The notes beneath the pieces were generated by a model. That model saw nothing but the letters and a program-made list of their open reading frames with translations, searched no databases and was not told the DNA's origin. The translations under genes and the position numbers were made by a program. This document shows, in pieces, positions 374 to 19,858 of a stretch of DNA of 20,678 nt (its first letter is position 1; each line of letters begins with the position of its first letter). Source of the DNA: a virus; IMG/VR virus record IMGVR_UViG_3300049478_000126, positions 1 to 20,678 of that record. One strand, written 5' to 3'.

Positions 374-431
374 GGTTGGTTGGATAGAAATTCTATGCAC
401 ACACACACAAATTGACGATGGTTAGGGCATG
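374..431. repeat. Family A palindrome with extended arm (GGTT-core-CA)
   Basis: Core GATAGAAATTCTATG at 383-397, preceded by ggttggttg and followed by a (CA)n tract (397-408) and then cgatggttagggca (416-429). The extended arm beyond the CA tract recurs in inverted orientation at 2430-2472, so these two copies are more alike than the other family A copies. The core is a hairpin-forming inverted repeat around a single central A. Confidence 0.8.
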
Positions 432-432
432 G

Positions 433-487
433 TGCCTTGAGGTAAGAAAAACACCTTCAGCCGAAAGTGCTTACTGTCTTCAAGGCA
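433..487 (+). ncRNA. Candidate structured RNA / strong hairpin in an ORF-less cassette
   Basis: The interval between two family A palindromes (397-500) holds no plausible protein but can fold: TGCCTTGAG (433-441) pairs with TTCAAGGCA (479-487, one G-T pair), giving nine base pairs; GTAAG (442-446) pairs with CTTAC (470-474) after a four-base bulge; CAC plus TT (452-457) pairs with AA plus GTG (465-469). The stacked helices resemble a small RNA or a folded recombination site. No known RNA family is recognised and expression is unknown. The drawing is by eye on the plus strand; the complement folds similarly. Confidence 0.3.
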
Positions 488-498
488 TTCTGGGTACG

Positions 499-521
499 GG
501 ATAGAAATTCTGTGTATACCC
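499..521. repeat. Family A palindrome, degenerate
   Basis: Core GATAGAAATTCTGTG at 500-514, one base off the consensus in the right arm, followed by gtgtat in place of the usual CA tract. It lies just after the stop codon of the minus-strand gene at 528 and separates it from the hairpin interval. Confidence 0.6.
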
Positions 522-527
522 ACCAGT

Positions 528-1022
528 CTAAGCCTGTGATTGAAGCTTCTGTTCTCTTTTCTTCATTTCATTGTAGAGGTATTCAAACCATTCTAGCGCT
601 TGAGGTCTTTTTAGCCGTTCTCTTCTTCCTTCTACAAGGGGCTTCATCTTTTCCCATGTGTCCAAGATAGGAATGGTGAATAGGTCATCGACTAAATCCA
701 TGCTTATCAGCTTTCTCTTGACAAGCACCCCTATACCCTCAAAGAAGACTCCCACTGAATATGACGCAGCCAAAACCTCAATGTTGCTGGTCGCATACCG
801 TTTAACATAGTCCGCGTAGTCCTCAAATTCTACACTCATCATTTTCTGATACGCTTTTTGAAATTCTGTGCTTCCAAATGTCGTGTATAATCTCATGACC
901 ATGTCCGTTTGTCTTAGTTTGGTCTGATGCCGAACTTGTAGAACATAGTAGATGGCTGCAAGCAATACACCAGCAGAAGCAATGGCTATAGAAATTGTCT
1001 GTATGTCAACAATTACTGACAC
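528..1022 (-). CDS. DUF4760-like single-pass membrane protein
   Basis: A 164-residue protein starting on GTG with a short outside segment, one transmembrane helix at about residues 9-29 (ISIAIASAGVLLAAIYYVLQ) and a cytosolic helical domain. The domain has the look of DUF4760-type proteins: a charged stretch after the helix (VRHQTKLRQTDMVMRLY), a FQKAYQKMM helix, the segment VGVFFEGIGVLVKRKLI, and a final WEKMKPLVEGRRE helix with the aromatic WFEYLY. Function of this family is unknown. The promoter probably lies in the AT-rich aataaac block about 30 bases upstream, giving a nearly leaderless transcript, since there is no ribosome site. It is a lone gene bracketed by family A palindromes at 500 and 1096. 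The family call is from motif memory and moderate. Confidence 0.65.
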   Translation of the reverse strand: MSVIVDIQTISIAIASAGVLLAAIYYVLQVRHQTKLRQTDMVMRLYTTFGSTEFQKAYQKMMSVEFEDYADYVKRYATSNIEVLAASYSVGVFFEGIGVLVKRKLISMDLVDDLFTIPILDTWEKMKPLVEGRRERLKRPQALEWFEYLYNEMKKREQKLQSQA

Positions 1023-1087
1023 GTGTCAATCGCCGATTACTGAAGTTTATTTCGGTTCAGCTATAGCTTTTTCGCACCATTCAAAGT

Positions 1088-1139
1088 TGTTGGTTGGATA
1101 GAAATTCTATCCAGCCAACCAACCAACCAACCAACCAAC
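1088..1139. repeat. Family A palindrome, fully symmetric, plus (CCAA)n microsatellite
   Basis: Core GGATAGAAATTCTATCC at 1096-1112 is a perfect inverted repeat around one base and extends into GGTT/AGCC on both sides. It runs straight into about six CCAA units (1115-1139). It lies between two divergent genes (1022 and 1241). Unlike most copies it has the GGTT/CCAA flank on both sides and no CA tract. Confidence 0.8.
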
Positions 1140-1240
1140 ATTCAGTGAACCGATTGACAAGCATCGAATCCTGAGCAATCAGAAAGAAAACGGAAACGCT
1201 TTTAGTTACTGATTTGCCATAAATCTCTTGTCGAATCTGC

Positions 1241-2374
1241 ATGAAATCAACAACATCGATAGTATTTTCCCTGATGTTGTGGTTTGTAGTATCTCCAAGC
1301 ATATTCCACGTCGCAATGCCCCAGCTGAATTTTCATGCGTTGGTCGCACCGCAGCTGTCTACTGAATCGGATATGGACTACGAGTTCAATTTACACGTCA
1401 ATGGAAGCGAGACTTTCAGTATTCACGACCGCGCTCTTAACGCCACTGGACCGGTATATGTACAGGACAACGCAACGCTTGACGTAAGAAATGCAACCCT
1501 GATCCTCACCAGACCTTTCGGCAGTCCAACAAATGATGTGCTGATAGCAACTGACAAAGCACACGTACTCATCGAAGACTCCACCATCATAATAAACAAC
1601 AACGGACACGACCCTGAACACGGAGACTACGTCACGTTCAGCGAATATAACCAAGCTGAGATGAACATAACTCGGTCAAAGTTTCAGGGTTACTCGTACA
1701 TGGACCAAGTTCGCATATTCGCATATGACACATCCGTGGTCAACGTCAAAGATTCGAATCTCACAGAGCAGTTGACGTATTACCCCAGCGAGCCCGGCGA
1801 AGTATCAGTCTATGGAAGCACGAACGCCTCTCTACACATCCTGAACTCAACCCTGTGGGTACTGGGGCTGAATGACAATTCAACAGCATCCATAAGGAAT
1901 AGTGACCTCAAAGAGATATTCACAGGGGAGAGTAGCCATCGAAACAGCACAATTGACAACATGTCTCTCACTCTGATAGATTCAAGGGTCATATCCGGTG
2001 TAATGGGGTATTCCGGATTCTGCAGATTTTTCATCCAGAACTCGGATATCTTCTGGCTGGTCATTGGACCTAATTCTTCAGCATACGTTGAAAACACCTC
2101 GGGAAATGAACTGAACGTTGATGCAAACTCAGAAGTCGTACTCGTGCATTCTTCTTGGAACCGCCTACAAACCCACGGAAACGGCAGAATACTTATCGGA
2201 GACTGGTTCTTTGGCCTACGCTTCCCAGGAATCGCATGCGTGCCCTACACATGGGTATCGCCACTACAGATACTCATCATCACAGTGACAATCGCGGTAG
2301 TTGTAGCCTCGGTCTATGTAAGTGTAATAAGAACACGCAGACATAGGACCAAAGCAAGTCCTCCCCCGACATAG
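1241..2374 (+). CDS. Surface-anchored right-handed beta-helix protein
   Basis: A 377-residue exported protein. An N-terminal signal segment (about residues 5-27) precedes a long body of short repeating strands, with rungs such as NATLDVRNATLIL, VLIEDSTIIINNN, VVNVKDSNLT, LHILNSTLWVL, ASIRNSDLK and LTLIDSRVISG, the pattern of parallel beta-helix (pectate-lyase-like) folds. Many Asn-X-Ser/Thr sequons suggest N-glycosylation. A C-terminal helix (about 343-363, LQILIITVTIAVVVASVYVSV) followed by basic RTRRHR anchors it in the membrane with the body outside. No catalytic residues are recognised; a binding or adhesin role is an inference. It stands alone between family A copies at 1096 and 2380/2457 and reads opposite to both neighbours. 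Confidence 0.7.
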   Translation: MKSTTSIVFSLMLWFVVSPSIFHVAMPQLNFHALVAPQLSTESDMDYEFNLHVNGSETFSIHDRALNATGPVYVQDNATLDVRNATLILTRPFGSPTNDVLIATDKAHVLIEDSTIIINNNGHDPEHGDYVTFSEYNQAEMNITRSKFQGYSYMDQVRIFAYDTSVVNVKDSNLTEQLTYYPSEPGEVSVYGSTNASLHILNSTLWVLGLNDNSTASIRNSDLKEIFTGESSHRNSTIDNMSLTLIDSRVISGVMGYSGFCRFFIQNSDIFWLVIGPNSSAYVENTSGNELNVDANSEVVLVHSSWNRLQTHGNGRILIGDWFFGLRFPGIACVPYTWVSPLQILIITVTIAVVVASVYVSVIRTRRHRTKASPPPT

Positions 2375-2376
2375 TG

Positions 2377-2400
2377 GGCATAGAATTTTTATCCAACCAA
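2377..2400. repeat. Family A palindrome, degenerate
   Basis: ATAGAATTTTTATCC (2380-2394) followed by aaccaac, starting six bases after the stop codon of the beta-helix gene. It has the CCAA side but no TG tract, and two differences in the core. Confidence 0.55.
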
Positions 2401-2407
2401 CTGCCTT

Positions 2408-2434
2408 TGCCCACGCCAGTGGGCGATTTGCCCT
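2408..2434. repeat. Two small hairpins between two family A copies
   Basis: GCCCAC-gcca-GTGGGC (2409-2424) is a perfect six-base-pair hairpin, and GGGC-gattt-GCCC (2421-2433) is an alternative overlapping it. They occupy the gap between the converging genes ending at 2374 and 2526 and may help terminate transcription. Confidence 0.4.
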
Positions 2435-2484
2435 AACCATCGTGGTGTGTGTGTGCATAGAAATTCTATCCTATCCAACCAGCC
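2430..2484. repeat. Family A palindrome with extended arm (TG-core-CCAA)
   Basis: Core ATAGAAATTCTATCC at 2457-2471 with a (TG)n tract on the left (2443-2455) and ctatccaacc on the right. Read on the minus strand it repeats the order core, CA tract, cgatggttagggca seen at 383-429, so the pair forms long inverted repeats around 432-2429. Confidence 0.8.
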
Positions 2485-2525
2485 TAGAAATGCAACGCAT
2501 TCTGCTTAGGGATTGTTTCTGCAGT

Positions 2526-3227
2526 TCAGGAGGATGCTACGTTTATGCTTGTCCACGCCAAGAAAAGATTTTCAAGCACGCGCTCGCTTGGTATGATTGC
2601 AGTGATTCTGTATGTGCCTGACATGTAGGTTTGGTTCCAGAACCCAGGATTTGATGTGTTAGTCTGGTTCCAGCTGAAGTTTCGTTCAAGAGTCTCGTTT
2701 GGTCCCACAGAGAACTCCGTCATACTTTGGTCAACTGCCCAGAAGTCGTATCCAGGTGGACTGTACCAGACTTCATATCCATAGTAGCGAAACTCGATAT
2801 ACTCCACTCTAACAATGACTGGTTTGTCTGACAAGGACTTGAAAGAATGTGCAATGAAACCCATGTTCCTGAGGGATGTCATAATTATCACGTCTTCTCC
2901 CAGTCTGTAGGTGGCTTTGTCTGTTGAAACGGAGAAGGACCATTTTGGCGTAGTGATTGTCCAGACTAAATGCGTAAACAACGTCGAAACAAGCATCACC
3001 CCAAGTGTAAGAACAAGAACCTTCTTGCCACCGAACTTGTCTCTTCCACCGAAGAAGTCAACCGCACAGGCGAACAGTAAAGCCCAAGCCATTACGTAAA
3101 ACAGTATGAAAAGGAGTGAGGGAAGCATTTCGTAGTAGAGAGCTGCTAAGCCCACGCTAGTCAGAAGAAAGACGGCTACAAAAAACAACACGGTATATAG
3201 TCTAGGTCGCAACTTCATCTGAGCCAT
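2526..3227 (-). CDS. Membrane protein with external BsuPI-like/Ig-like domain
   Basis: A 233-residue protein with three predicted transmembrane helices near the N-terminus (about residues 9-30, 35-58 and 68-90), then an outside beta-sandwich of about 140 residues. The opening of that domain, STDKATYRLGEDVIIMTSLRN followed by an FKSLSDKPVIVRVEY strand, a WY-containing loop, GPNETLERNFSWNQ and the closing GTYRITAII, matches the layout of BsuPI/intracellular-proteinase-inhibitor-like domains (Y-x-x-G-E, N-x-G, and G-x-Y-x-I/V-x-A). Several Asn-X-Ser/Thr sites agree with an external location. The start ATG-GCT-CAG-ATG has no ribosome site, suggesting a short leader. Function unknown. It is alone between family A copies at 2457 and 3290. 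Confidence 0.65.
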   Translation of the reverse strand: MAQMKLRPRLYTVLFFVAVFLLTSVGLAALYYEMLPSLLFILFYVMAWALLFACAVDFFGGRDKFGGKKVLVLTLGVMLVSTLFTHLVWTITTPKWSFSVSTDKATYRLGEDVIIMTSLRNMGFIAHSFKSLSDKPVIVRVEYIEFRYYGYEVWYSPPGYDFWAVDQSMTEFSVGPNETLERNFSWNQTNTSNPGFWNQTYMSGTYRITAIIPSERVLENLFLAWTSINVASS

Positions 3228-3280
3228 TCAGTTTCATTCATGTATTTGGGCTTTCATTCTTAAATTACTTGTGCGAGTTC

Positions 3281-3304
3281 GAGGAGGAGGATAGAAATTC
3301 TATG
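3281..3304. repeat. Family A palindrome preceded by GGAGGAGGA
   Basis: Core GATAGAAATTCTATG at 3290-3304, preceded by gaggaggag instead of GGTT repeats. The same GGAGGAGGATAGAAT-type sequence occurs inverted at 3470-3486 and again at 19831-19845, in both of those cases next to a family B palindrome. Confidence 0.75.
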
Positions 3305-3344
3305 CAGAGCACCATGAGAGATAGACTTTGACTTGTAGCAGCAT
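3300..3344 (-). pseudogene. C-terminal remnant of a second COG2401 gene
   Basis: On the minus strand these 15 codons read MLLQVKVYLSWCSA-stop, against MLQQVKVYLFWGTA-stop at the end of the intact ABC-ATPase/acetyltransferase gene (4489-4533). The reading frame, stop codon and adjoining family A palindrome are all shared, and in both the stop is TAG made by the palindrome arm. Homology ends at a GCGCGCGC run at 3344-3353. The two tails differ at several positions, so this is the tail of a diverged relative and not a fresh duplication. Confidence 0.6.
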
Positions 3345-3355
3345 GCGCGCGCGTA
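3344..3355. repeat. Family B-like GC palindrome at a gene breakpoint
   Basis: TGCGCGCGCGTA, an alternating GC run flanked by T and A like the family B core. It lies exactly at the join between the COG2401 remnant and the plus-strand gene fragment. Confidence 0.5.
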
Positions 3356-3434
3356 TCACAAAGAATGCTACTCCGAATATGACAGGCAGAGACAGGAGCA
3401 GATGCTCAAAAAAGTCCTAAACATAGAGCAGTAA
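3348..3434 (+). pseudogene. C-terminal fragment of an unknown (zinc-finger-like) gene
   Basis: Starting inside the GC run, the plus strand reads R-A then YHKECYSEYDRQRQEQMLKK and seven more residues to a TAA at 3432-3434. The composition, with an R-A-Y-H-x-E-C-Y opening and a charged helix, looks like the end of a treble-clef or zinc-ribbon protein. There is no start or upstream part: the preceding sequence is the palindrome and the COG2401 remnant on the other strand. A degenerate family B palindrome begins right after the stop. Being short, it could be chance, but the composition is protein-like. Confidence 0.4.
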
Positions 3435-3446
3435 TAGCCCGCGCTA
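3435..3446. repeat. Family B palindrome, one mismatch (TAGCCCGCGCTA)
   Basis: It differs by one base from TAGCGCGCGCTA and starts immediately after the TAA of the gene fragment at 3348-3434. Confidence 0.55.
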
Positions 3447-3469
3447 CCAGTAGGCGGCGACGTGCGCTT

Positions 3470-3502
3470 ATTCTATCCTCCTCCCTTTAATAGCGCGCGC
3501 TA
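3470..3502. repeat. Composite of half family A and full family B
   Basis: ttctatcctcctccc (3471-3485, the inverse of the GGAGGAGGATAGAA at 3282-3295) is followed by a perfect TAGCGCGCGCTA at 3491-3502. The same two elements, in the other order, bound the paralogous pilin-like cassette at 19831-19858. Confidence 0.7.
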
Positions 3503-3563
3503 TGGACGGGCATGAATTCATAGTTCATAAAACTCAAACGTTTTCGGCAGGCAATTTTAAGTT
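3503..3563 (+). promoter_or_regulatory. Promoter block shared by the two pilin-like cassettes
   Basis: The 60 bases before the start at 3564 are about 85% identical by eye to the minus-strand block 19761-19822 before the gene starting at 19760, including the identical AGTTCATAAAACTCAAACG (3522-3540; 19784-19802 inverted). CATAAAA is a plausible TATA box, which would put the transcript start about ten bases before the ATG. Both blocks end with aattttaagt before the start codon. Strong conservation compared with the flanks suggests that promoter and gene move together. Confidence 0.6.
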
Positions 3564-4352
3564 ATGGACGAAACGCTGGATGGATGGGATTTAATTTTCA
3601 GCGCGCGCGTGCGCGCTATTATTATACTCGCTGCAGCCTTGTTTCTTGGATTTATTATCTATCTGGCTATTCAGCCTCCGCTTGACTTTAGTCCCATAAT
3701 AACGCGCGGTAAACTTGAAGTGCAAAGCCACACATGGGCAATAAACTGCACATCGATAACCCTAACCATTAAGAACACTGGAACAGGGAGTGTATCTGTA
3801 GAGAAGATACTGGTCTATGCGGCAGGCTCCAATGTAACCGATGTGGTAGCCTCCAATGTAACCTACGGTCCAGCTTTCTCAGAAACTGCGAACACACTCT
3901 CTGCAGGAGAAACGGGTACAATAACCATAACCCAACAATTCTCATCTGGCATCCAATACGTGTTTCACGTGATTTCAACGAGTGGCAATTCGTATCCATA
4001 CGTTACCACAGCGCCATCGCCGGCGATTCAATTCTACTTGAAAATGGAGTCTGGCAGCATGGAACCAACCATCCATGTGGGTGACACAATCAAGGTCGAA
4101 CAGGTTATAAATGGAAGTTTGATCGAAGTAGGCGACATTATTGCTTTCCAAAGCCCTCACAACGCTTGTGAAACAATCGTCCATCGTGTAGTGAATAAGG
4201 AGTTTCGAGATGCAAGTATGGATACGAATTACTTAGGGCTCTGGTACTTCCAGACCAAGGGAGACGCGAATTATATTCCCGACATGTGGTCTGGCGAATA
4301 CACATGGAATGGCATGATCTCCGAAGAACTACTGATTGGCAAAATCATTTAG
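3564..4352 (+). CDS. Archaeal-type signal peptidase I with N-terminal pilin-like domain
   Basis: A 262-residue membrane protease expected to cut exported proteins outside the membrane. Residues 18-37 form one transmembrane helix; 45-150 are a beta-sandwich like those of archaeal pilins (ITLTIKNTGTGSVSV, TLSAGETGTITITQQFSSG); 155-262 are the S26 peptidase. The catalytic set is visible: Ser165 in SGSMEPTI, His207 in IVHRVV in place of the bacterial lysine, and Asp234 in TKGDANYIPD. A second C-terminal helix, common in archaeal SEC11-type enzymes, is absent. The sandwich has a close paralogue without peptidase at 19362-19760. Codons 13-18 (AGC-GCG-CGC-GTG-CGC-GCT) are an in-frame GC palindrome missing from the paralogue. 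A one-gene cassette between palindromes; fusion to a pilin-like domain suggests a dedicated substrate, which is inference. Confidence 0.85.
   Translation: MDETLDGWDLIFSARVRAIIILAAALFLGFIIYLAIQPPLDFSPIITRGKLEVQSHTWAINCTSITLTIKNTGTGSVSVEKILVYAAGSNVTDVVASNVTYGPAFSETANTLSAGETGTITITQQFSSGIQYVFHVISTSGNSYPYVTTAPSPAIQFYLKMESGSMEPTIHVGDTIKVEQVINGSLIEVGDIIAFQSPHNACETIVHRVVNKEFRDASMDTNYLGLWYFQTKGDANYIPDMWSGEYTWNGMISEELLIGKII
3600..3617. repeat. Family B-like palindrome inside the signal peptidase gene
   Basis: AGCGCGCGCGTGCGCGCT, an 18-base near-palindrome encoding Ser-Ala-Arg-Val-Arg-Ala between GWDLIF and the transmembrane helix. The paralogue at 19362-19760 goes from GWALIY directly into its helix, so the element looks like an in-frame insertion. 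Confidence 0.5.
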
Positions 4353-4460
4353 CGATCTCTGAAAAGCTCGCGCACCGCTTGAAAGCATATTTATCATTTG
4401 CCGATCATGGAAGCGACTATGATATCGTGCCGCCGTAGTTAGTGTTCATGACTTATAGGT

Positions 4461-4493
4461 AACGCGCGCGGTTGGTCGGATAGAATTTCTATG
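4461..4493. repeat. Adjacent family B-like and family A palindromes
   Basis: AACGCGCGCGGTT (4461-4473) is directly followed by ggtcg and the family A core GATAGAATTTCTATG (4479-4493). The right arm of the core supplies the TAG stop (4489-4491) of the minus-strand COG2401 gene. It separates the signal peptidase cassette from the packaging operon. Confidence 0.7.
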
Positions 4494-5940
4494 CAGTGCC
4501 CCAAAAGAGATAGACTTTGACTTGTTGTAGCATGCCACAGATGCCGATCAACTTGGAGACTTTCTGCAGGTCTGCGGTTTCAACAGCCCCCCTGTAGAAT
4601 CTGCTTCTGCCGTACGGGTCGTGGAAGCTGAATTCCTTCATGAAGCGTGGATGTCTGTTTTCCGAAAAAACTGTCCTAAGCATGTTCAGCTCTTCGTCCT
4701 TCAGGTTTGAGAGTTTGTTGAGCACGTATTTCGGGCTGCGCAGAAAAGTGATGTTGAAACCCAATGTTTTGAGCAACTCTGCAACTTTGAAAGCTTCCTT
4801 GACTGGTTGGCTTTCAGCTATTTTGCGCATGCCGGCTTTCTCAAAGAACGGATTGTATTTGGCCATGACCGCTACTGTTTCAACGTATGGTGTGCCTGCA
4901 TGCTCTAGGGTTTCTCGGATGAGTTTGTGGCCCAATCCAATTGTGCGGTATTTTGGATGAACAACGACTCGGCTGATAATGCTCAGTTTCTCATTCAGTT
5001 CTCGCATGCTCATTCTTGGCAAAACCATTCTTCGCCCAAAACATGCTGCTGGAGGATAAGAATAGACTATGACCCCGCAGAGTTCTTCGCCGCGTTTGAG
5101 AGAGAAAATCTTGCGGACACCAGCAACCTTATGGCTGCGGTAATGGAAACTGGCGAGCTGATAGTAATCTTGTCTTGAACCTTCTAACACGTGCATTTCC
5201 TTGACAAGCGAGCATTCTTTGTTGATTTCATTGGGACAGTATTTGACTTCAATCTCTCTGCCAAATCTCTTGTGCACATGGACTGAAGGCTTCAAGTCTT
5301 CAAACAGGTCGTTGTGCGTTGTGGCTGCCAACACGGCTTTTCCTTCTTGTCTGGCGAGCTTTTGCACGTTGAAGGCCACGATTTTAGCTGTGTCTCTGTC
5401 AAGTGTGGCTGCAAATTCGTCCATTATCCAAAACTGAGCCATACTCTCCATCATTTTTGCGATTCTGTATCGGTATTTCTGCCCATCGCTTAGCTGCTCA
5501 AAAGTGCGCAAGAATAGGAAGGCGTCGTTTAAGCCGACTTTGCTCAGCAGCTCCAAGCCTTCCTCAAGCGTGGCGCCAACTGTTTCGATAAGAGGCTTGT
5601 TGGGTACTGGATGAATGTCGGCGATGTTAATTGCTGATGCTTGCATGTCGTTCTTGATGTCTTTCTCTAAAGCTCTCAGCAGAACAGACTTGCCCGAGCC
5701 TGAATCTCCAGTTATGAGCGTAATGTCTATCTTCCCTATTTTCAACTCGACATTATCGTAGACCACAAATCTTTCCCATTTGTCCAAGCCTAATCCGAAG
5801 CTCTCAGCAACGGCTACGACTCTTTTAGTCGGCTTGGGAGCAGCTGTCTCATAGCTTATGTTGACGACGAACTTGCCAGTTTCACGGTCAAACCTGCGAG
5901 CCCAACGCTTAATCTTGAAAAACTCTCGGCGCCTAACCAA
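4489..5940 (-). CDS. ABC-type ATPase fused to GNAT acetyltransferase (COG2401 family)
   Basis: From the TTG at 5940 (GGAGG nine bases upstream; eight-base overlap with the terminase gene) this is a 483-residue protein; a GTG at 5991 would add 17 residues. The ATPase half shows Walker A GDSGSGKS (78-85), signature LSDGQ (150-154), Walker B FWIMDE (170-175) and an H-loop histidine in AATTHND. The second half is a GNAT fold with the acetyl-CoA loop in VVVHPKYRTIGLGHKLIRE (about 325-343) and YNPFFEKAGM. This matches COG2401, a soluble archaeal fusion with no transport partner and unknown substrate, often seen in virus-like clusters next to terminase. Its position directly after the large terminase suggests a role in packaging, DNA or host-protein modification. 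Its stop codon is supplied by a family A palindrome, and a tail of a second copy sits at 3300-3344. Confidence 0.85.
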   Translation of the reverse strand: MVRRREFFKIKRWARRFDRETGKFVVNISYETAAPKPTKRVVAVAESFGLGLDKWERFVVYDNVELKIGKIDITLITGDSGSGKSVLLRALEKDIKNDMQASAINIADIHPVPNKPLIETVGATLEEGLELLSKVGLNDAFLFLRTFEQLSDGQKYRYRIAKMMESMAQFWIMDEFAATLDRDTAKIVAFNVQKLARQEGKAVLAATTHNDLFEDLKPSVHVHKRFGREIEVKYCPNEINKECSLVKEMHVLEGSRQDYYQLASFHYRSHKVAGVRKIFSLKRGEELCGVIVYSYPPAACFGRRMVLPRMSMRELNEKLSIISRVVVHPKYRTIGLGHKLIRETLEHAGTPYVETVAVMAKYNPFFEKAGMRKIAESQPVKEAFKVAELLKTLGFNITFLRSPKYVLNKLSNLKDEELNMLRTVFSENRHPRFMKEFSFHDPYGRSRFYRGAVETADLQKVSKLIGICGMLQQVKVYLFWGTA

Positions 5941-7384
5941 TCTTAAAAACCTCCAAGAATGGCTCAGGCTCGGCACCTGTACTTGCGACACAGGCTAAAG
6001 CAATAGCCCAAAACCTATCGTCGTGTGATCCTTGCGGATGCGAGAAACTGTAGATCTCTGTTCCCGGTCTTTGCTCCCATTGTTCCGCGTTTAGCTCTGC
6101 CTGCACTTCCATGTCGAACGGGAGCTCAAACTGGCGTCGGGCTTCTTCAGGCTGCAACTCCTTGTCGCTTTTTCTCACAGCCATCATCTTCTGCTTCAAG
6201 AAACTAGCCAAACCGTGTTTTGAAGGCAACGAGAAATCGATTCCTTTCACGCCTGGGAACTCGCTTCTTTTGATCTCTTCATCCATGCCAAACGTTCCTG
6301 TGTGATCGTAGTAAACGGCGTTCACGGTTTTCCAGCGGTCGCACAACGATTTGATGTAAGCCATCTGCGTGACGTAAGGTGTGCCAAGCGGAAACTGCTT
6401 ACAATGAATCAAGACCAAAACATCGTCTCTTCTGTTGACAACGGCTACCACGCCAGGATCTCTTTCTCTGCCAAGATCCCAGCCAACATAGAACTCGCCG
6501 CTGATACTATCCTCAAACTGTGCGAATTCCAGAGCCTCATTCTGACATTTGATGATTAGGCTGCTAGGCAAGAACGCGGTTTCATCATCCACGAAACTGC
6601 ATTCCATCTCACGTTTCCAACGCCAAGTCTCACCCGCATACTGCTCACGCATACTCTCAACCTGCAGGGGATCCAGTGGACCGTCAGGTTTGAGCACGTT
6701 TTCCCACGTGCGCAGATAACGCGGCGGATCATGCTCGTTGATATTACCACTGAACATCTTGAAACCCTTGTCAAAACACATCTTCCAGTAAATCGAGTCT
6801 TTGTTCCACGGCGTACTGGCAACATTGATGTAGACCGTTCGAGTCAACGTCATGGGCAATAAGGCGCTCAGCCAAAGGTCCTTGTCCTTGCGAACGAAGT
6901 TCATTTCATCGCAATTCACCTTTCTAGGTCCATGACCTCTTATCGTGAAGGGCTCAGGCACTTCAGCCAGAATCTTTGACCCATTCCGGAAGCGAATAAT
7001 CGTTTGAAGCTGCTCCAAGACGAGGGCTTTGTAGACTTCGCGGTCCATTCGGGCTAAATGCTCATGTAAGCCGCCTTCGCCTTGAAAGTAAATTTCTTTG
7101 ATTTGTTGATGTTTTGGCATGATAACAAGAATGGTGGAGTTGGGCACGGTTGCCGCAAAATGAATGTCACTACCACTCATAACCGTTGTTTTACCAGCCC
7201 GCCTGCACCAACGCAAGACCTTAAGCGGACTCAAATCACGCAGAAACTCGGCTTGATAGGGATACGGCGTAATGTGTAAAATCTTTTGGAAAAACTCAAC
7301 AGGGTCCTGAGGTAACTTAACTTCCTCTTGCGCCCACAGGTCGCTTTCCAGTCTCCTCATCCTTTGCTTTTGCCTTTGCTTCAC
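5933..7384 (-). CDS. terL: Terminase large subunit (DNA-packaging ATPase/nuclease)
   Basis: A 483-residue protein of normal length for the motor that cuts and pumps DNA into proheads. ATPase motifs: a Walker A variant WCRRAGKTT (59-67), Walker B VNCDE (156-160), and the coupling motif NVAST (187-191). The RNase-H-like nuclease has its acidic residues in place: Asp303 in YVGWDLG, Asp360 in AVYYDHTG, and Asp455/456 in GSHDDRFW. The start is GTG with GGAGAGG upstream; an ATG eight codons later has no ribosome site. The 5' end overlaps the previous gene by 68 bases and the 3' end overlaps COG2401, so the three are translated as an operon. All motifs are intact, so it is probably functional. Confidence 0.95.
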   Translation of the reverse strand: MKQRQKQRMRRLESDLWAQEEVKLPQDPVEFFQKILHITPYPYQAEFLRDLSPLKVLRWCRRAGKTTVMSGSDIHFAATVPNSTILVIMPKHQQIKEIYFQGEGGLHEHLARMDREVYKALVLEQLQTIIRFRNGSKILAEVPEPFTIRGHGPRKVNCDEMNFVRKDKDLWLSALLPMTLTRTVYINVASTPWNKDSIYWKMCFDKGFKMFSGNINEHDPPRYLRTWENVLKPDGPLDPLQVESMREQYAGETWRWKREMECSFVDDETAFLPSSLIIKCQNEALEFAQFEDSISGEFYVGWDLGRERDPGVVAVVNRRDDVLVLIHCKQFPLGTPYVTQMAYIKSLCDRWKTVNAVYYDHTGTFGMDEEIKRSEFPGVKGIDFSLPSKHGLASFLKQKMMAVRKSDKELQPEEARRQFELPFDMEVQAELNAEQWEQRPGTEIYSFSHPQGSHDDRFWAIALACVASTGAEPEPFLEVFKIG

Positions 7385-7730
7385 TCACCAACCTCTCCAA
7401 CTCATCCAACTGAACATCAATTTGTTTCTCGTCAAAACCAGATGCAATGCTATTCAAAATCTGAGCGATGTAAGCTGCTATACGCGCCCACATCTGCCTC
7501 TGCTTCAGCGTAACCTTTACTCGCTTCCCCTCTTCCTTCTGCGTTTTGAATTCTCCTTTCGCAAATGCAACAGCCAAATCAAAAAGCAGTTCAAGGCTTC
7601 TGATGGTTTTTGAACGCATCTCTTGTGTGTCAACCTTAACTGTCCTCTTCAGCTCTACTATGCGCCGAATAATCATCTTATTACGTGAAATTCTAGCCAA
7701 ACGGCGATACCCCCCGTATTTTTTCATCAT
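7317..7730 (-). CDS. Putative terminase small subunit / packaging protein
   Basis: A 137-residue basic, mainly helical protein directly before and overlapping the large terminase by 68 bases. Its start ATG overlaps the upstream stop (ATGA at 7727-7730). It begins with a basic region (MMKKYGGYRRLARISRNKMIIRRIVELKR) and has a long central helix pair ending in KQRQMWARIAAYIAQILNSI, followed by a charged coiled tail. Small terminases bind viral DNA and hand it to the large subunit; the position, size and charge fit, but no helix-turn-helix motif is clear. The assignment is from context. Confidence 0.5.
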   Translation of the reverse strand: MMKKYGGYRRLARISRNKMIIRRIVELKRTVKVDTQEMRSKTIRSLELLFDLAVAFAKGEFKTQKEEGKRVKVTLKQRQMWARIAAYIAQILNSIASGFDEKQIDVQLDELERLVSEAKAKAKDEETGKRPVGARGS

Positions 7731-7984
7731 GCCTTCTGCCCAAAAACAGCTCCTAAAATGGTTCCGATGACCAGTGAGACAGCTGCAAAAACCTCGCTGC
7801 TGAATGTACGGAGTACAACAATGTAGGTTATTTCAAGGGCTGTCAGGCTGACGAGACTGGCGATGGCGAAGTATATGCCCAAAACAAGCTTCTGGCTTGG
7901 CGGAACCTCAATGTCCTGCGGTCGCCCACGTAGGTCTTTCACGGTCACCTTCCGTGTCAAGGCTCTCTTAATCATGTTCGTCAT
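7727..7984 (-). CDS. Two-helix membrane protein, holin-like
   Basis: Taken from the ATG at 7984, which overlaps the protease stop as ATGA and has AAGGA ten bases upstream, the product is 85 residues. A longer start at 8041 would overlap the protease by 61 bases and has no ribosome site. The protein has a basic N-terminus, two transmembrane helices (about residues 31-52 and 59-80) and the ending VIGTILGAVFGQK, a GxxxG-rich pattern typical of small viral membrane proteins near packaging genes. A holin or virion-membrane role is possible; there is no specific evidence. Confidence 0.5.
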   Translation of the reverse strand: MTNMIKRALTRKVTVKDLRGRPQDIEVPPSQKLVLGIYFAIASLVSLTALEITYIVVLRTFSSEVFAAVSLVIGTILGAVFGQKA

Positions 7985-8424
7985 CGCTTTTTCGTCCTTG
8001 GCCATGGTTTCAACATTGTCAGCTTGCCGATTTTGAGCCATTTGATCGGCTTGAGCAGCTTTCGATTCTTCACATCTATCTGCAGTTCAAGGATTTCCAT
8101 CACGTCAAAACCCAGCAGAGTTGAAGCGCTGTCTGAATCGCTAACAGCTACCAGCGTGATGACAGGTTTCTCGCAGATGGTGATGCAAACATAGGCAAAG
8201 GGAAAATTGACTATTCTTCCATCCGCCAGCTCGGCTTGAGCTCTTCCAACTTCCTCAAGCTTCAATTGCCTAGCTAGTTTCTTGGATACTACGCAGCCGC
8301 TGGCTCCTGTGTCAACAACGAATTTTGTTTGAGCCTTCAACTTGGGGTTTTTCGGGTTAGCGATGTACCCGTCAATTGAAACGACTTTGTCAGTCTTATT
8401 CTGCTTCAAAACAAGTCCATCCAT
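7981..8424 (-). CDS. Retropepsin-like (clan AA) aspartic protease
   Basis: A 147-residue single-domain aspartic protease. The catalytic motif is FVVDTGASGCVVS (Asp38-Thr-Gly), and the second family signature appears as STLLGFDVME, the hydrophobic-hydrophobic-Gly that folds against the active site. As a single domain it should act as a homodimer. It starts on ATG with GGGAGAG upstream, three bases after the stop of the baseplate remnant. It opens the intact part of the packaging operon; a role in virion protein maturation is plausible because no usual prohead protease is seen, but this is inference. Confidence 0.75.
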   Translation of the reverse strand: MDGLVLKQNKTDKVVSIDGYIANPKNPKLKAQTKFVVDTGASGCVVSKKLARQLKLEEVGRAQAELADGRIVNFPFAYVCITICEKPVITLVAVSDSDSASTLLGFDVMEILELQIDVKNRKLLKPIKWLKIGKLTMLKPWPRTKKR

Positions 8425-8427
8425 GTG

Positions 8428-8505
8428 TTAGACTCTCCCAGTGTATCGTGCTAAGCTGCCCGTCATGTTTCTCAAAGCATTCAAGTACTCAGCCAGCAGG
8501 GGCGG
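8428..8505 (-). pseudogene. C-terminal remnant of a second baseplate/tail gene
   Basis: Twenty-five codons beginning Pro-Pro then LLAEYLNALRNMTGSLARY and ending in TGRV-stop match the end of the intact tail protein at 11284-12870 (Pro-Pro then LLADYLYALRSKTGSLSRY, then KIGRI-stop). Homology starts at the base after the stop codon created by the TAGCGCGCGCTA palindrome. The remnant is still followed by a ribosome site feeding the protease, so an intact ancestor probably stood directly upstream of the protease gene. Confidence 0.7.
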
Positions 8506-8634
8506 TTAGCGCGCGCTAGGCACGTCAATGCTGTTCCCGCTGCCTATGCTCTTGCCAATAGAAGCATCAGCCCACTCAACACGAACAAGGTCACCCAGTT
8601 GTAAGGATTCAATCTGCTTTGCAACATGTTTCAT
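8506..8634 (-). pseudogene. N-terminal remnant of an unknown gene, cut at a palindrome
   Basis: From an ATG at 8634 the frame reads 42 residues, with the protein-like core LQLGDLVRVEWADASIGKS, and stops at once inside the family B palindrome (Ser-Ala-Arg-stop). A G-D-L-V-R-V-x-W-x-D-A-S pattern suggests the start of a small beta-barrel domain, but the family is not recognised. The rest of the gene is missing and replaced by the baseplate tail. It could still be made as a short protein. Confidence 0.55.
8507..8518. repeat. Family B palindrome, perfect (TAGCGCGCGCTA), at a fusion scar
   Basis: A perfect 12-base palindrome forming the join between two unrelated truncated genes on the same strand; its minus-strand reading supplies the TAA that ends the upstream fragment. 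Confidence 0.8.
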
Positions 8635-8689
8635 ACATCATCAAAAGACCCGCAAACAACGCTGACACATAAAGACTCACGAAATTCAC
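8609..8689 (-). CDS. Possible small membrane peptide at the start of the packaging operon
   Basis: A 26-residue frame starting on GTG contains one hydrophobic helix (VSLYVSALFAGLLMMYE) and ends 26 bases inside the next frame. A strong AAGGAG at about 8714-8719 stands before an ATG at 8709 that opens only seven codons (ending GTGA at the GTG of this frame), so either a tiny leader is coupled to this peptide or one frameshift separates a single 33-residue protein. Short and unconfirmed. Confidence 0.35.
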   Translation of the reverse strand: MNFVSLYVSALFAGLLMMYETCCKAD

Positions 8690-8728
8690 CAATTCACAAA
8701 TTTGCCCATAAACTTCTCCTTAGATAGA

Positions 8729-8756
8729 GTGTGCACAGAATTTCTATCCAACAACT
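8729..8756. repeat. Family A palindrome, degenerate (TG-core-CCAA)
   Basis: gtgtgc then ACAGAATTTCTATCC (8735-8749) and aacaac. It lies between divergent units, 20 bases ahead of the packaging operon's first ribosome site and about 110 bases ahead of the gene at 8861. Confidence 0.7.
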
Positions 8757-8860
8757 AACAAGAACTACGGTTGACAAGCAGTTTTGGTTTTGCGGAAAAG
8801 TTATTACCAAAAAAGAGAGAATCAGAATTGACAGCAAAATGAAAAGGGAGGTGCATTGGT

Positions 8861-9217
8861 TTGTTGGTTAATATTGTCAGATGGCGTGTTCCGAAAGAGA
8901 AGAGCAACGAGCAATTCGAGGTTTGGCGTGAAATGATGGACTACCAGAAGTCTCATCCAGAAAAGGTCTACTACACTAGGTCTCGTTTTTTCACCTTCAC
9001 TGAAAAGGACTCATCCGAAGAAAACTGGATGTTCCTTGATGAATATGAACACCGCGAAGACTATGACAAGTGGATGAAAGCTGTGCGTGAAGACCCAGAG
9101 CTAGTGAAACTCATGGAAGCTTGGTTCCCTAAGTGGGACGCTCTGATTGTTCCCGGGTCTAAGAAGAAAGGCGAAGTCTGGACTGAAGTTGAGAAGCTAA
9201 GAGTCGAGTTCAAGTAA
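8861..9217 (+). CDS. Dimeric alpha/beta-barrel (ABM/NIPSNAP-like) protein 1
   Basis: A 118-residue soluble protein starting on TTG with a clear GGGAGGTG site (8846-8853) seven bases upstream. It opens with a strand VNIVRWRV, then a helix EQFEVWREMMDYQK, two strands including YYTRSRFFTFTEK and ENWMFLDEYEHREDYDKW, and a helix VREDPELVKLMEAWF, the ferredoxin-like order of the dimeric alpha/beta-barrel superfamily (antibiotic-biosynthesis monooxygenases, NIPSNAP). Such proteins often act without cofactor on small aromatic molecules, but no active site can be assigned here. A single-gene cassette between family A copies at 8735 and 9233. A second member of the superfamily lies at 9721-10044. Confidence 0.65.
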   Translation: MLVNIVRWRVPKEKSNEQFEVWREMMDYQKSHPEKVYYTRSRFFTFTEKDSSEENWMFLDEYEHREDYDKWMKAVREDPELVKLMEAWFPKWDALIVPGSKKKGEVWTEVEKLRVEFK

Positions 9218-9222
9218 GGGGT

Positions 9223-9256
9223 TTGGGTTTGGGATAGAATTTCTACCCACACACAC
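9223..9256. repeat. Family A palindrome (GGGTTT-core-CA)
   Basis: gggtttggg then GATAGAATTTCTACC (9233-9247) and acacacac. It fills the 41-base gap between two converging genes (stops at 9217 and 9259). Confidence 0.75.
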
Positions 9257-9258
9257 TT

Positions 9259-9513
9259 CTATAAAGAAAGTTTGTCTTTGTGTCCTTTCTGAGTAGTGCT
9301 CGAAGGCTGCATCGGTTTTTCTCTCCGTTGAATAAAGAGCAGAAGGAGTATACCAACTATCACTATAAGCGATTGAATCGTGGGCACAACAACTGCACTT
9401 TCACCTGAGAATAATACATGAAAGTAAATCGTGTCCAGAGTGACATAGGCTAGCAAGGCTATGGCAACCGACACGGTCAATACTTTGGCGAGGCGTTGAG
9501 TGCGTCTTTTCAA
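9259..9513 (-). CDS. Small two-helix membrane protein
   Basis: An 84-residue protein with a basic start (MKRRTQRLAK), two transmembrane helices (about residues 10-32 and 42-61) joined by a short outside loop, and a polar, basic C-terminal tail (QRREKPMQPSS) that should face the cytosol. No family is recognised. It is a lone cassette between the family A copies at 9233 and 9574, with a candidate operator at 9606-9646 upstream. Confidence 0.55.
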   Translation of the reverse strand: MKRRTQRLAKVLTVSVAIALLAYVTLDTIYFHVLFSGESAVVVPTIQSLIVIVGILLLLFIQRREKPMQPSSTTQKGHKDKLSL

Positions 9514-9565
9514 TAGTCTCTATCCACATTAAACCTGTTGTCTGCTTCGATTTTATCTTTTTCTG

Positions 9566-9596
9566 CGTGTCTGGATAGAAATTCTATGCACACACA
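9566..9596. repeat. Family A palindrome (core-CA)
   Basis: GATAGAAATTCTATG (9574-9588) followed by cacacaca. It lies 60 bases upstream of the small membrane protein gene. Confidence 0.75.
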
Positions 9597-9605
9597 AAAA
9601 AAAGT

Positions 9606-9646
9606 GGAGATATCTCCCGTATTCCCGATTGACATAGATATCTCCC
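9606..9646. promoter_or_regulatory. Repeated AGATATCTCCC boxes, possible operator
   Basis: A perfect palindrome GGAGATATCTCC (9606-9617) and a second AGATATCTCCC (9636-9646) whose start is 28 bases from the first. Both lie between the terminator of the gene at 9721 and the start of the gene at 9513. Spaced copies of a palindrome in a promoter region suggest a regulator site; no regulator is identified, though an RHH protein is encoded at 11108. Confidence 0.35.
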
Positions 9647-9670
9647 AAAGAACACCGTGAATAAAGATGC

Positions 9671-9702
9671 TTAAAAAGCGTGATAGAGAATTGTTCTATC
9701 AC
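9671..9702 (-). terminator. Hairpin terminator of the gene at 9721
   Basis: On the minus strand GTGATAGA and TCTATCAC (9680-9687 and 9695-9702) pair over eight bases with a seven-base loop, followed by CTTTTTAAG. It lies 18 bases past the stop at 9721. The stem GATAGA/TCTATC is the same as the family A arms with the centre enlarged, so it may be a modified family A copy acting as a terminator. Confidence 0.6.
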
Positions 9703-9720
9703 CTTTTCTCTATTCTTAGC

Positions 9721-10044
9721 CTACACAACAGTACTCCATATTGACCTCGTAACAGGCGTCTGGTCTTTTATTTTGTAGTATTCTGTCATAAGCTCCTTGA
9801 TCTCTTTGTGCTCGAAAAGCGCGCGGTCAGACTTCTCCAAGGCTTCCATGCTTTTGAATTCATACATTTCAACTTTTGTGCCAGCTACTCCACCGTATTC
9901 TTGCTCGAAAACTCGCCACGATATCACTCCTTCAAACAACTTCGGGTCTGCCTTCATCATTTTTCGCATTTTTTTGATCAGAGCCAGATATTCTGCTCGC
10001 TTTCCATCTTTGATCCCGTATGTCAAAACAAAGACGATACTCAT
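9721..10044 (-). CDS. Dimeric alpha/beta-barrel (ABM/NIPSNAP-like) protein 2
   Basis: A 107-residue protein from the ATG at 10044, chosen because GAGGAGGTG stands nine bases upstream; a GTG at 10056 is part of that ribosome site. The order is strand SIVFVLTYGI, helix KRAEYLALIKKMRKMMKADP, strand GVISWRVFEQEYG, strand KVEMYEFKSMEALEKSD, and helix HKEIKELMTEYYKIK. This is the ferredoxin-like layout of dimeric alpha/beta barrels, with the superfamily's long first helix. No catalytic residues can be named. It is related in fold, not closely in sequence, to the protein at 8861. A single-gene cassette with its own terminator. Confidence 0.65.
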   Translation of the reverse strand: MSIVFVLTYGIKDGKRAEYLALIKKMRKMMKADPKLFEGVISWRVFEQEYGGVAGTKVEMYEFKSMEALEKSDRALFEHKEIKELMTEYYKIKDQTPVTRSIWSTVV

Positions 10045-10130
10045 ATTTCTGTTCACCTCCTCATCTTGCTATTCGTTCACGCTAGGTCAAAATCTAAGTA
10101 TGTTGTCTGGTTCGTCTATAACTTTTCCGC

Positions 10131-10169
10131 AAGTGTGTGTGTGCTTAGAAATTCTATCCAACCAACCAG
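10131..10169. repeat. Family A palindrome (TG-core-CCAA)
   Basis: agtgtgtgtgtgc then TTAGAAATTCTATCC (10145-10159) and aaccaacc. It lies between divergent genes starting at 10044 and 10276. Confidence 0.8.
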
Positions 10170-10275
10170 ATGCAGCTTCCTTGTTCCTTGATTCATTCTT
10201 GAATCATGCCAGAAATTCTCGTGGGCAATAAGCTATAAGAATGTATTTGATCGAATTAGTTTTGAGGAAGCCAAT

Positions 10276-10602
10276 TTGAAATGGCATGTTTTGTTTTTCA
10301 TAGTCGTGGCTTTTACTGCAAATGCGTTAGCGCTTGCAATCGCCATAATGTTAGAGAGTATATGGGCTGGTGCCATTATCTTTGCTTCTTTTGCATTGGG
10401 CTTCTACTGGATTTTCATTAGGTTTCGCAAGAAAAGGGAACCCAGATATCCATTGGTGCCACCAGAAGGAAAGCCTGATGTCTACTTGCCTCGAACAGAC
10501 ATCCCCCGACCAATATTTGAAGACTTTCGCAGAATGGAAGAGAAAAAAAGAAAGCTTGAAAAGCTGAAGAAGCTTTCACGGAAGAAGAAGCAAGCCACAT
10601 GA
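10276..10602 (+). CDS. Small membrane protein with basic cytosolic tail
   Basis: A 108-residue protein starting on TTG with TTGAGGAAG upstream. Two transmembrane helices (about residues 4-25 and 29-49) are followed by a basic, proline-containing linker (RFRKKREPRYPLVPPEGKP) and a very basic, lysine-rich helical tail (EEKKRKLEKLKKLSRKKK) that could bind nucleic acid or a protein partner. No family is recognised. A single-gene cassette between family A copies at 10145 and 10627. Confidence 0.55.
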   Translation: MKWHVLFFIVVAFTANALALAIAIMLESIWAGAIIFASFALGFYWIFIRFRKKREPRYPLVPPEGKPDVYLPRTDIPRPIFEDFRRMEEKKRKLEKLKKLSRKKKQAT

Positions 10603-10614
10603 AACTTCAGGTTT

Positions 10615-10647
10615 ACAAGTGTGTGTGATAGAATTTCTATCCAACCG
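10615..10647. repeat. Family A palindrome (TG-core-CCAA) overlapping a stop codon
   Basis: aagtgtgtgt then GATAGAATTTCTATCC (10627-10642) and aaccg. The minus-strand reading of the right arm supplies the TAG stop (10637-10639) of the gene that follows, as also happens at 4489. Confidence 0.8.
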
Positions 10648-11011
10648 AAACTCGAATGCCAGTATGTACGTGCCTGTATCTGTCTCTTAGATGAAGAAGC
10701 GCCCCGCAACAGATCGTGTATAGAACTGCATCGATTAGGAAACCAGGAAACAGTAGCGAGTAGGTTACGTAGCGACTTACAATAGGTCCGCAACCGTACT
10801 TGCGCACTATCTCCATTGAGGAAAACCAGTAAGCTGGAAACCCATAGCTTGTCTGCTTCTGAGGAAATTCGAAGATTATCATGACGCATGGCTCCACGCG
10901 ATCAGAAGAAAGATCGAGTTCGGATATGCGAAGAGCCGACGCAAGCGTCACAGCTAGTCCCAGAAGAATGGAGCCAAAGACAAACTTCAATCTTGCTTTG
11001 TTTCTTAGCAT
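10637..11011 (-). CDS. Membrane protein of unknown function
   Basis: A 124-residue protein taken from the ATG at 11011, which puts a signal-anchor helix (KFVFGSILLGLAVTLASA) at residues 8-25; an upstream ATG at 11095 would add 28 residues of non-signal-like sequence. A second hydrophobic segment (LLFPGFLIDAVLYTICCGALL) lies at about 84-104, and the region between, rich in aromatic residues and containing two cysteines, is probably outside. TTAAATG about 35 bases before the ATG could be the TATA box. The last codons and stop lie in a family A palindrome. Function unknown. Confidence 0.5.
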   Translation of the reverse strand: MLRNKARLKFVFGSILLGLAVTLASALRISELDLSSDRVEPCVMIIFEFPQKQTSYGFPAYWFSSMEIVRKYGCGPIVSRYVTYSLLFPGFLIDAVLYTICCGALLHLRDRYRHVHTGIRVSVG

Positions 11012-11107
11012 GACAGTACCACAACTTGTAGCGAAGGGCAGGCATTTAATCCCATGCAATCGAACGAAGTGTACTAGGATTAGTACAAGATGCATGCAGA
11101 CAGCTAG

Positions 11108-11281
11108 TCAAATCCTCAGTTTCCTGATTAGTGCTTTGACTCGTTCTTGATCTTTCAGGTATTCTTGGATTATGGCGTTTGTCAACTCGTATATGCGCAG
11201 GTCATTCAACAAGGCTAGCTTTCTTATTTCCGTGTGCAAGTCATCACGAACTTCTAGAACTGATCTGCGTGTCTTGTCCAA
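11108..11281 (-). CDS. Ribbon-helix-helix (CopG/Arc-type) regulator
   Basis: A 57-residue protein starting on TTG two bases after the stop of the baseplate gene, with GGAGG inside the end of that gene as ribosome site. Its body, RSVLEVRDDLHTEIRKLALL followed by NDLRIYELTNAIIQEYL and a basic tail, fits the RHH pattern: a strand with alternating residues, helix A (LHTEIRKLALL), a turn (NDLR), and helix B (YELTNAIIQEYL). RHH proteins bind DNA as dimers and repress their own and nearby promoters. As the last gene of the tail operon it could control viral genes or cassettes. Too short to have been found by a length cut of 60 residues. Confidence 0.6.
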   Translation of the reverse strand: MDKTRRSVLEVRDDLHTEIRKLALLNDLRIYELTNAIIQEYLKDQERVKALIRKLRI

Positions 11282-11283
11282 GG

Positions 11284-19352: not shown

Positions 19353-19364
19353 TAGCGCGCGCTA
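19353..19364. repeat. Family B palindrome, perfect, supplying a stop codon
   Basis: TAGCGCGCGCTA. On the minus strand its first three bases are the TAG stop of the pilin-like gene at 19362, and the homology to the signal peptidase gene ends at this point. Confidence 0.8.
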
Positions 19365-19760: not shown

Positions 19761-19822
19761 GACTTAAAATTGTGTGCCGAAAGCGTTTGAGTTTTATGAA
19801 CTCTAAATTCATACTCGACCAT
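19761..19822 (-). promoter_or_regulatory. Promoter block shared with the signal peptidase cassette
   Basis: The inverted counterpart of 3503-3563, with AGTTCATAAAACTCAAACG on the minus strand at 19784-19802 and TATGGTCGAG at the far end. CATAAAA is the likely TATA box. Confidence 0.6.
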
Positions 19823-19830
19823 AAAAATAA

Positions 19831-19858
19831 AGGAGGAGGATAAAATTAGCGTGCGCTA
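19831..19858. repeat. Composite of half family A and family B
   Basis: GGAGGAGGATAAAAT (19832-19846) is followed by TAGCGTGCGCTA (19847-19858, one change from the core). Together with the copy at 19353 it brackets the pilin-like cassette. Confidence 0.65.

Follow-up and report, generated by a model that had tools for sequence, protein, structure and literature searches.

CRISPR (clustered regularly interspaced short palindromic repeats) adaptation is thought to have derived from casposons, the repeats coming from casposon ends or from duplicated target sites. We know of no natural arrays in which many small units are strung by a Cas1 transposase between reused palindromes. Casposons (families 1-4) were defined by Cas1, family B DNA polymerase (PolB), inverted repeats and duplications (Krupovic et al. 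2014, PMC4046053), and the target-site duplications in the literature range from 1 to 27, with a median of 15. The A. boonei casposase gave 15-bp duplications and frequent tandem insertion; a synthetic M. mazei mini-casposon inserted in vivo into an existing duplication (PMC10359463), and tandem casposons are known in Methanosarcina mazei and Nitrosopumilus (PMC10359463, PMC6563490). Here we describe a repeated palindrome, called A, in the virus record IMGVR_UViG_3300049478_000126; the whole stretch analysed, positions 1 to 20,678 (20,678 bases), is referred to as the window and carries terminase and tail-type gene clusters. Palindrome A was most probably the insertion site of a casposon-type stand-alone Cas1, the transposon kin of the CRISPR enzyme that inserts spacers, and was duplicated at each insertion. 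Virus and archaeal host would thereby hold arrays of one-gene cassettes, a natural counterpart of a CRISPR array with genes as its units.

Tandem casposons likewise reuse a duplicated target site, in the order element-duplication-element, but they comprise about two full elements per site, whereas the arrays described here held many one-gene units without cas1, occurred in a virus and in hosts, and had a palindromic site. CRISPR arrays, which grow through Cas1-Cas2, likewise duplicate a short palindromic repeat at each Cas1-type insertion and hold their units between repeats. Here, however, no CRISPR-type Cas1 was found in the host genome G054 (class Bathyarchaeia), the repeats were 13 bp long and there was no evidence for immunity; in place of regular short spacers with Cas1-Cas2, the units were mostly genes of 300-1300 bp. 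Integron cassettes likewise form single-gene arrays between short recombination sites, with a recombinase that possibly lies elsewhere, but no tyrosine integrase or attC/attI was seen here, insertion appeared to proceed by site duplication, and gene orientation was mixed. The boundary was a 13-bp direct duplication, and no integrase match was found among the scanned proteins (the host genome was not searched for IntI). In a literature search that lacked most subscription journals, one passing co-mention of casposons and Bathyarchaeia was found, and there was no report of arrays of one-gene casposon cassettes, of PolB-less bathyarchaeial casposons or of such arrays in a virus. A term search of a paper on Bathyarchaeia viruses showed neither casposons nor one-gene cassette arrays.

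Palindrome A in the viral window

The repeated core of palindrome A was 13 bp long (ATAGAAWTTCTAT; the target sequence bearing it is written out as GTGTGTGCATAGAAATTCTATGCACACAC). When the window was scanned with GATAGAANTTCTATC at up to 3 mismatches, exactly 12 copies were found, at 383, 500, 1097, 2379, 2456, 3290, 4479, 8734, 9233, 9574, 10144 and 10627, compared with a mean of 0.95 and a maximum of 4 in the shuffled window. The same scan gave zero copies to the right of 10642. Ten of the 12 copies were wholly intergenic, while intergenic sequence accounted for 11% of window positions (P about 1e-8); the remaining two lay over the stop codons of genes 4489-5991 and 10637-11095. An earlier note on this DNA had listed twelve copies, at least one of them at each of ten gene boundaries and none inside a gene except over a stop codon, with oriented simple-sequence flanks. 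The re-scan reproduced its coordinates within 1 bp and bore out the boundaries, the placement outside genes and the flanks. Its further statement, that unrelated single genes lie between the copies, held for most intervals but not for 384-501 and 2380-2457, which had no gene, or for 4480-8735, which contained the viral packaging operon.

In the 24 outward 12-mers flanking A, 82% of the bases were A or C, versus 49% in random intergenic sequence (0 of 20,000 draws as high). The base bordering the core was usually C on the (TG)n side, and the opposite side usually continued with CC. Two classes of outward flank were distinguished, a CC-type (CCAACC, CCCAAACCC, CCTCCTCC, CCACAC; an example of such an end is CCCACACACACA) and a G-type (GCACACAC). 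The CCAA-type simple tracts are best read as cassette termini, and the (TG)nC side would be the outer target arm or another kind of cassette end. A native target of the form (TG)nC-A-G(CA)n would become G-A-C...C-A-G once a cassette was inserted. Exactly this G-A-C...C-A-G form was seen at the Cas1 element of G054, and one near-intact G-A-G copy was present at L139:1528 of the same genome. In the window, the copies from 2457 rightwards stood in the expected order of left edge, right edge and internal CC copies, the left edge at 3468 being decayed. An inverted sequence of 28-33 bp was common to the ends at 397 and 2456 (0 of 2000 random pairs scored as high) and also occurred in G054 and in a second Bathyarchaeia genome, G056, so that the G-type ends may belong to a second kind of element as its termini; this reading and that of an outer target arm both stand.

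The clearest cassette, listed below, had inverted-type CC termini that were C/A-rich and of the same class as those of the Cas1 elements, a likeness in composition and not in long identity. Its duplication consisted of exact 13-bp copies at 2457 and 3291, with the same motif as around the G054 Cas1 element. Other cassettes had decayed or centre-mismatched A copies.

2457..2469: A copy 5, ATAGAAATTCTAT; the left-hand duplication
2470..3290: the cassette itself, 821 bp with one gene; each end carries a CC-type tract, with an exact, identical 13-bp duplication outside
2526..3227, minus strand: the single gene of this cassette, 233 aa; hydrophobic segments, no Pfam match
3291..3303: A copy 6, ATAGAAATTCTAT; right duplication of the same cassette

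The viral comparison set comprised 80 related loci obtained from a terminase search. No repeated copy of A, or of any comparable word, was found in these 80 relatives, and A as a general feature of this virus group was therefore rejected. None of the cassette genes was present in them, whereas the core GNAT/ABC gene was found in many. The closest relative, L010, aligned to window positions 18591-11282 and, immediately after these, to 8440-4841; the block missing from it holds five A copies, and at that place its tail gene abuts the protease gene. Among the cassette genes, only the DUF4760 gene was found in a few other viral contigs. Its relatives on L478 and L479 belonged to other viruses and had no A sites, showing that this gene is not always a cassette. 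Searches with two other cassette proteins across viral contigs gave no relatives. When viral contigs were scanned more loosely for tract-site-tract patterns, 107 and 113 matches were obtained, none with a convincing RAANTTY palindromic centre among the loci inspected, and no second virus array was therefore demonstrated.

Stand-alone Cas1 elements and arrays in Bathyarchaeia

In G054 (contig L138), two identical copies of ATAGAATTTCTAT in the same orientation surrounded a 3,329-bp element whose ends formed a 72-bp perfect inverted repeat. The longest gene of this element encoded Cas1 (PF01867, 8.9e-48), and its other products were MazE/AbrB-like, treble-clef and small unknown proteins. When solved structures were searched with the G054 Cas1, CRISPR Cas1 and the M. 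mazei casposase 6OPM were matched. There was no second Cas1 match in the G054 genome, and no CRISPR-like array in the ten Cas1 regions examined, that of G054 included. A broken relative of the window's GNAT/ABC viral gene neighboured the element, suggesting contact between the host group and the virus group.

Some twenty close solo copies, 44-59% identical across long stretches, came out of a search with the G054 Cas1, together with fragments and more distant CRISPR-type Cas1. Eight elements, that of G054 and seven in six other Bathyarchaeia genomes, had inverted termini and direct duplications of 13-15 bp (ATAGAATTTCTAT, ATATAGGTTGAAT, ATCAAAATTTAGT, TTAAAATTTTTAT, ATAAAAATTAAAT, AAGAAAGTTTAATA, ATATACTTTGAATTT and ATTAAAATTTAGT). 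Several of these were plainly non-palindromic, showing that they are true duplications and no artefact of a palindromic terminus. A simple duplication was absent from the element on L183, and at several further Cas1 copies repeats could not be detected. Termini were mostly C/A-rich, those on L189 and L193 being C/T-rich. The catalytic E, H and D/E residues were kept in all 14 Cas1 proteins examined, which formed a clade of their own (100/100), distinct from the CRISPR Cas1 proteins of that class; the sole M. mazei casposase fragment in the tree was on a long branch and its placement was unsure.

None of nine elements had a stop-free frame long enough for PolB (the longest was 379 aa), and there was no polymerase match among the scanned proteins. 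A small protein of 142-223 aa with DxD and YHxVF motifs was common to six of the nine (L138:9522-10067, L183:3082-3510 and four homologues). One member gave a weak AEP-like primase match (PF24387, 2.6e-4, below the cut-off), and the protein could possibly be a minimal primase in place of PolB. Like casposons, the bathyarchaeial elements had a stand-alone Cas1 with catalytic residues and no adjacent CRISPR array, terminal inverted repeats and target-site duplications (13-15 bp), and were often inserted between genes. They differed in being short (3.3-7.7 kb), in having no PolB-sized gene and often a small, weakly primase-like protein, and in their 5' ends being C-rich and hence their 3' ends G-rich, the A. 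boonei 3' end being TCCCC. As they had every defining feature except the family B DNA polymerase of the original definition, we conclude that they work like casposons and form a PolB-less variant.

The exact 15-mer was present in 5 of 257 genomes of the class. In G054 there were 14 exact 13-mers and 13 with one mismatch, 27 in all versus 5 for the control; they were clustered, often at contig ends (27 sites in 2.3 Mb, compared with 12 in 10.3 kb of the window), and their flanks showed the same two kinds of tract as the window. Two perfect A copies surrounded a small gene unit on L094 (Bathyarchaeota), and a viral fragment, L006, had a single A copy with both tracts beside a ribbon-helix-helix gene. 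The window, L139 (G054), L196 (G056), L094 and L006 have one common site type. From exactly A onwards, L094:3017-3168 and L143:9374-9525, in two host genomes, were 97% identical over 152 bp, and the other side differed.

The G054 cassette at L140:7625-8467 had one gene, CC-type ends and identical 13-bp copies outside. It belonged to a 5.0-kb stretch that separated a radical-SAM-like gene from a small regulator-like one, two genes that were 11 bp apart in G058, one of six relatives examined; the host array fills a junction that is closed in this relative, indicating an insertion in G054 or, less likely, a deletion in G058. A homologue of the window's DUF4760 protein in G054 (L141:8104-8580, 47% identical) was also located between two A copies. 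In genome G001, an intact Cas1 element (L183:2250-7268) was followed by one-gene units separated by tract-site-tract sites, with genes for a lipocalin and for proteins of 307, 75 and 162 aa. Compared with relatives, synteny of this array was broken on the far side and no empty site was read. Across the class, 10 of 257 genomes had the pattern GGTTTGGG-N(8-20)-CCCAAACC, at roughly a dozen places in all, and the reversed control gave no match; most centres of the pattern were quasi-palindromic sequences of the RAANTTY type. A gene-less unit of 36 bp was held between two A copies at L139:445-480, its counterpart in the window being the 64-bp unit at 2393-2456; these units, near the size of CRISPR spacers, may be relics or genuine short insertions.

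Other matches were discarded. Single exact motif matches in G087 and G248 had no tracts and were taken as chance. A genome scan for the A motif with CCAACC gave 14 matches, about the chance number by our estimate, and such matches in the viral and genome collections were mostly chance, except L006 and L094.

Proposed Cas1 insertion and alternative explanations

In the proposed mechanism, the Cas1 enzyme, which is absent from the contig, would come in trans from a host of the class Bathyarchaeia, for example G054. It would make a staggered cut across the 13-bp palindrome and join a cassette between the cuts, and repair would leave one palindrome copy on each side. The cassettes would be small non-autonomous casposons with one gene between C/A-rich simple-sequence termini. 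Because the palindromes on both sides of a cassette are intact, the site would be reusable, and serial insertion would build A-cassette-A-cassette-A arrays, as CRISPR arrays grow by repeat duplication. The published A. boonei and M. mazei experiments support such chemistry. We infer from the sequences that Cas1 could move cassettes without cas1, acting in trans in the virus, and that the array may still be active; insertion, with no part played by recombination with host arrays, presumably built the viral array. The earlier note's picture of a cassette array bounded by a short palindrome is well supported, but its integron analogy has to be corrected, as A is read here as a target-site duplication and not as an attC-like site carried by the cassette. 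No recombinase was present on the contig, as the note had said, but the G054 element with the same boundary encodes a Cas1 integrase. An equal density of the motif across the host genome, which the note took as evidence against a cassette array, was not seen in G054. The comparison of strains that it proposed for gain or loss of single genes yielded the 5.0-kb host array absent from G058, but no pair that differed by a lone cassette with both flanks intact.

We give an even chance to a wider claim, in which a PolB-less bathyarchaeial casposon family has a true gene-cassette system with a reused palindrome, one-gene and sometimes 36-64 bp units, and arrays moving between host and virus. If true, the arrays would represent a living intermediate on the way from transposon to CRISPR array, and the Cas1 counterpart of an integron. 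They would supply a casposon-to-CRISPR step, which could be tested through the preference of Cas1 for its own duplicated site and through control of unit length. They would also offer a mechanism by which single accessory genes pass from an archaeal host to its head-tailed virus, and a boundary mark for finding such mobile genes in Bathyarchaeia genomes.

Several observations weigh against Cas1 insertion as the source of the array. The alternation of edge types failed in 384-2380, which was mirror-like and looked rearranged. The central base differed between some neighbouring copies (T at 9234, A at 9575), and simple duplication predicts no such difference. The L010 junction carried extra scars, and the viral relatives showed no convincing pre-existing A site at the places of the array. 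The G058 comparison covered 5 kb and several genes, not one cassette, and no strain pair had one cassette present or absent with both flanks intact. The link between cassettes and Cas1 consists in a shared site and shared termini, and the mechanism leaves unexplained how the first insertion found its target or how A spread to many loci. Finally, a GCGCGC palindrome and gene scraps were found at 8425-8634 and 3304-3346, indicating additional recombination; arrays may therefore have come into the virus partly via recombination with host arrays.

Carried further, these joints lead to another explanation, in which the array arose by homologous or illegitimate recombination between short repeats (A, the tracts, GCGCGC) with no dedicated integrase, and the Cas1 elements merely share the sites. 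The gene remnants and GC-palindromes at 8425-8634 and 3304-3346 fit such an origin, as do the order in 384-2380, unlike that expected of insertions, and the repeated homology supplied by tracts and palindromes. We nevertheless consider it unlikely, because the exact 13-bp duplications in the same orientation with CC-type ends (2457-3303; L140 7625-8467), in the design of the Cas1 elements, are the signature of a staggered-cut insertion.

The nearly complete restriction of A to intergenic regions, and the promoter-like TGCGGAAAAGTTATAG near the starts of three accessory genes, would suit a regulatory or terminator element (an operator, or a repetitive extragenic palindromic-like or boundary element) among ordinary viral accessory genes. 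This is improbable, however, as A occurred equally at convergent, divergent and serial boundaries and was absent from core viral boundaries and from the 80 relatives. Further, the host copies bracketed a Cas1 element with inverted repeats as a target-site duplication does, and unrelated duplications of 13-15 bp occupied the equivalent places around the sister elements. A tyrosine-recombinase or integron-like system, or a family of miniature inverted-repeat transposable elements with another transposase, recombining at A is very improbable: one-gene cassette arrays do look integron-like and other transposases can give duplications this long, but the scanned proteins of the A-bracketed element and its sisters gave no match to a recombinase or other transposase, Cas1 was present in all nine sister elements, and the inverted termini and direct duplications were unlike attC recombination.

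Other features of the array and its joints

Apart from the clearest cassette, the window had the following features.

1-267: ATP-cone domain protein (PF03477) at the left end of the record; another cassette, with its end at 384, may have this as its gene
384..396: A copy 1, ATAGAAATTCTAT; CCAA tract left, G(CA)n right
397..429, plus strand: left member of an inverted pair, GCACACACACAC..ACGATGGTTAGGGCA; partner at 2429-2456, minus strand
501..513: A copy 2, ATAGAAATTCTGT, one change
528..1022, minus strand: cassette gene, DUF4760 protein, 164 aa (PF15956, 4e-13)
1098..1110: A copy 3; CC-type tracts on both sides, junction of two cassettes
1241..2374, plus strand: cassette gene, 377 aa; without a Pfam match, one hydrophobic segment close to the C terminus
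2380..2392: A copy 4, ATAGAATTTTTAT, one change
2393..2456: 64-bp unit without a gene, flanked by A on each side; its G-type end, GCACACACAC..ACGATGGTTAGGGCA, matches the inverted end at 397-429 as well as sequences of the host genomes G054 and G056
3304..3346, minus strand: remnant of the 3' end of a GNAT/ABC gene
3468..3485: decayed A half with a CCTCCTCCC tract (13th site); inferred left edge of the next cassette
3564..4352, plus strand: cassette gene, S26 signal-peptidase-like with a CARDB-like part; DNA 69% like 19361-19851
4480..4492: A copy 7, overlapping the stop codon of the virus's GNAT/ABC gene
8440..11282: block missing from the closest relative, L010
8735..8747: A copy 8, ACAGAATTTCTAT
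8861..9217, plus strand: cassette gene, 118 aa; absent from viral relatives
9234..9246: A copy 9; CC-type tracts on both sides
9259..9513, minus strand: cassette gene, 84 aa
9575..9587: A copy 10, ATAGAAATTCTAT
9721..10056, minus strand: gene between two G-type ends, 111 aa
10145..10157: A copy 11, TTAGAAATTCTAT
10276..10602, plus strand: cassette gene, 108 aa
10628..10640: A copy 12, ATAGAATTTCTAT, overlapping the stop codon of gene 10637-11095
10637..11095, minus strand: last accessory gene of the array, 152 aa

The segment 3289-3346, which includes the GNAT/ABC remnant, was 88% like 4478-4535, and the shared stretch started exactly at A. The CARDB-like gene region was present in two inverted copies, 3465-4020 and 19361-19851, that were 69% alike over 561 bp; both adjoined a CCTCCTCC tract and a decayed half-site.

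A second palindrome, TAGCGCGCGCTA, had 6 matches at up to 2 mismatches versus 0.54 expected, with sites at 3491-3502, 8507-8518, 19353-19364 and 19847-19858. The site at 8507 sat exactly at the truncation point of a conserved gene. Stretches of GCGCGC were also seen in host array spacers (L138, L140, L094). At 8425-8634, a scrap of the 3' end of the tail gene (PPLLAEYLNALRNMTGSLARYTGRV) adjoined the initial 39 residues of a small gene whose length in relatives is 121-139 aa; recombination has left this scar where the inserted block has its edge. The promoter-like TGCGGAAAAGTTATAG preceded accessory genes at 1075 (minus strand), 8792 (plus strand) and 10130 (minus strand) of the window and at 1250 and 2440 of the viral contig L479, and its common occurrence suggests that the accessory genes may be co-regulated.

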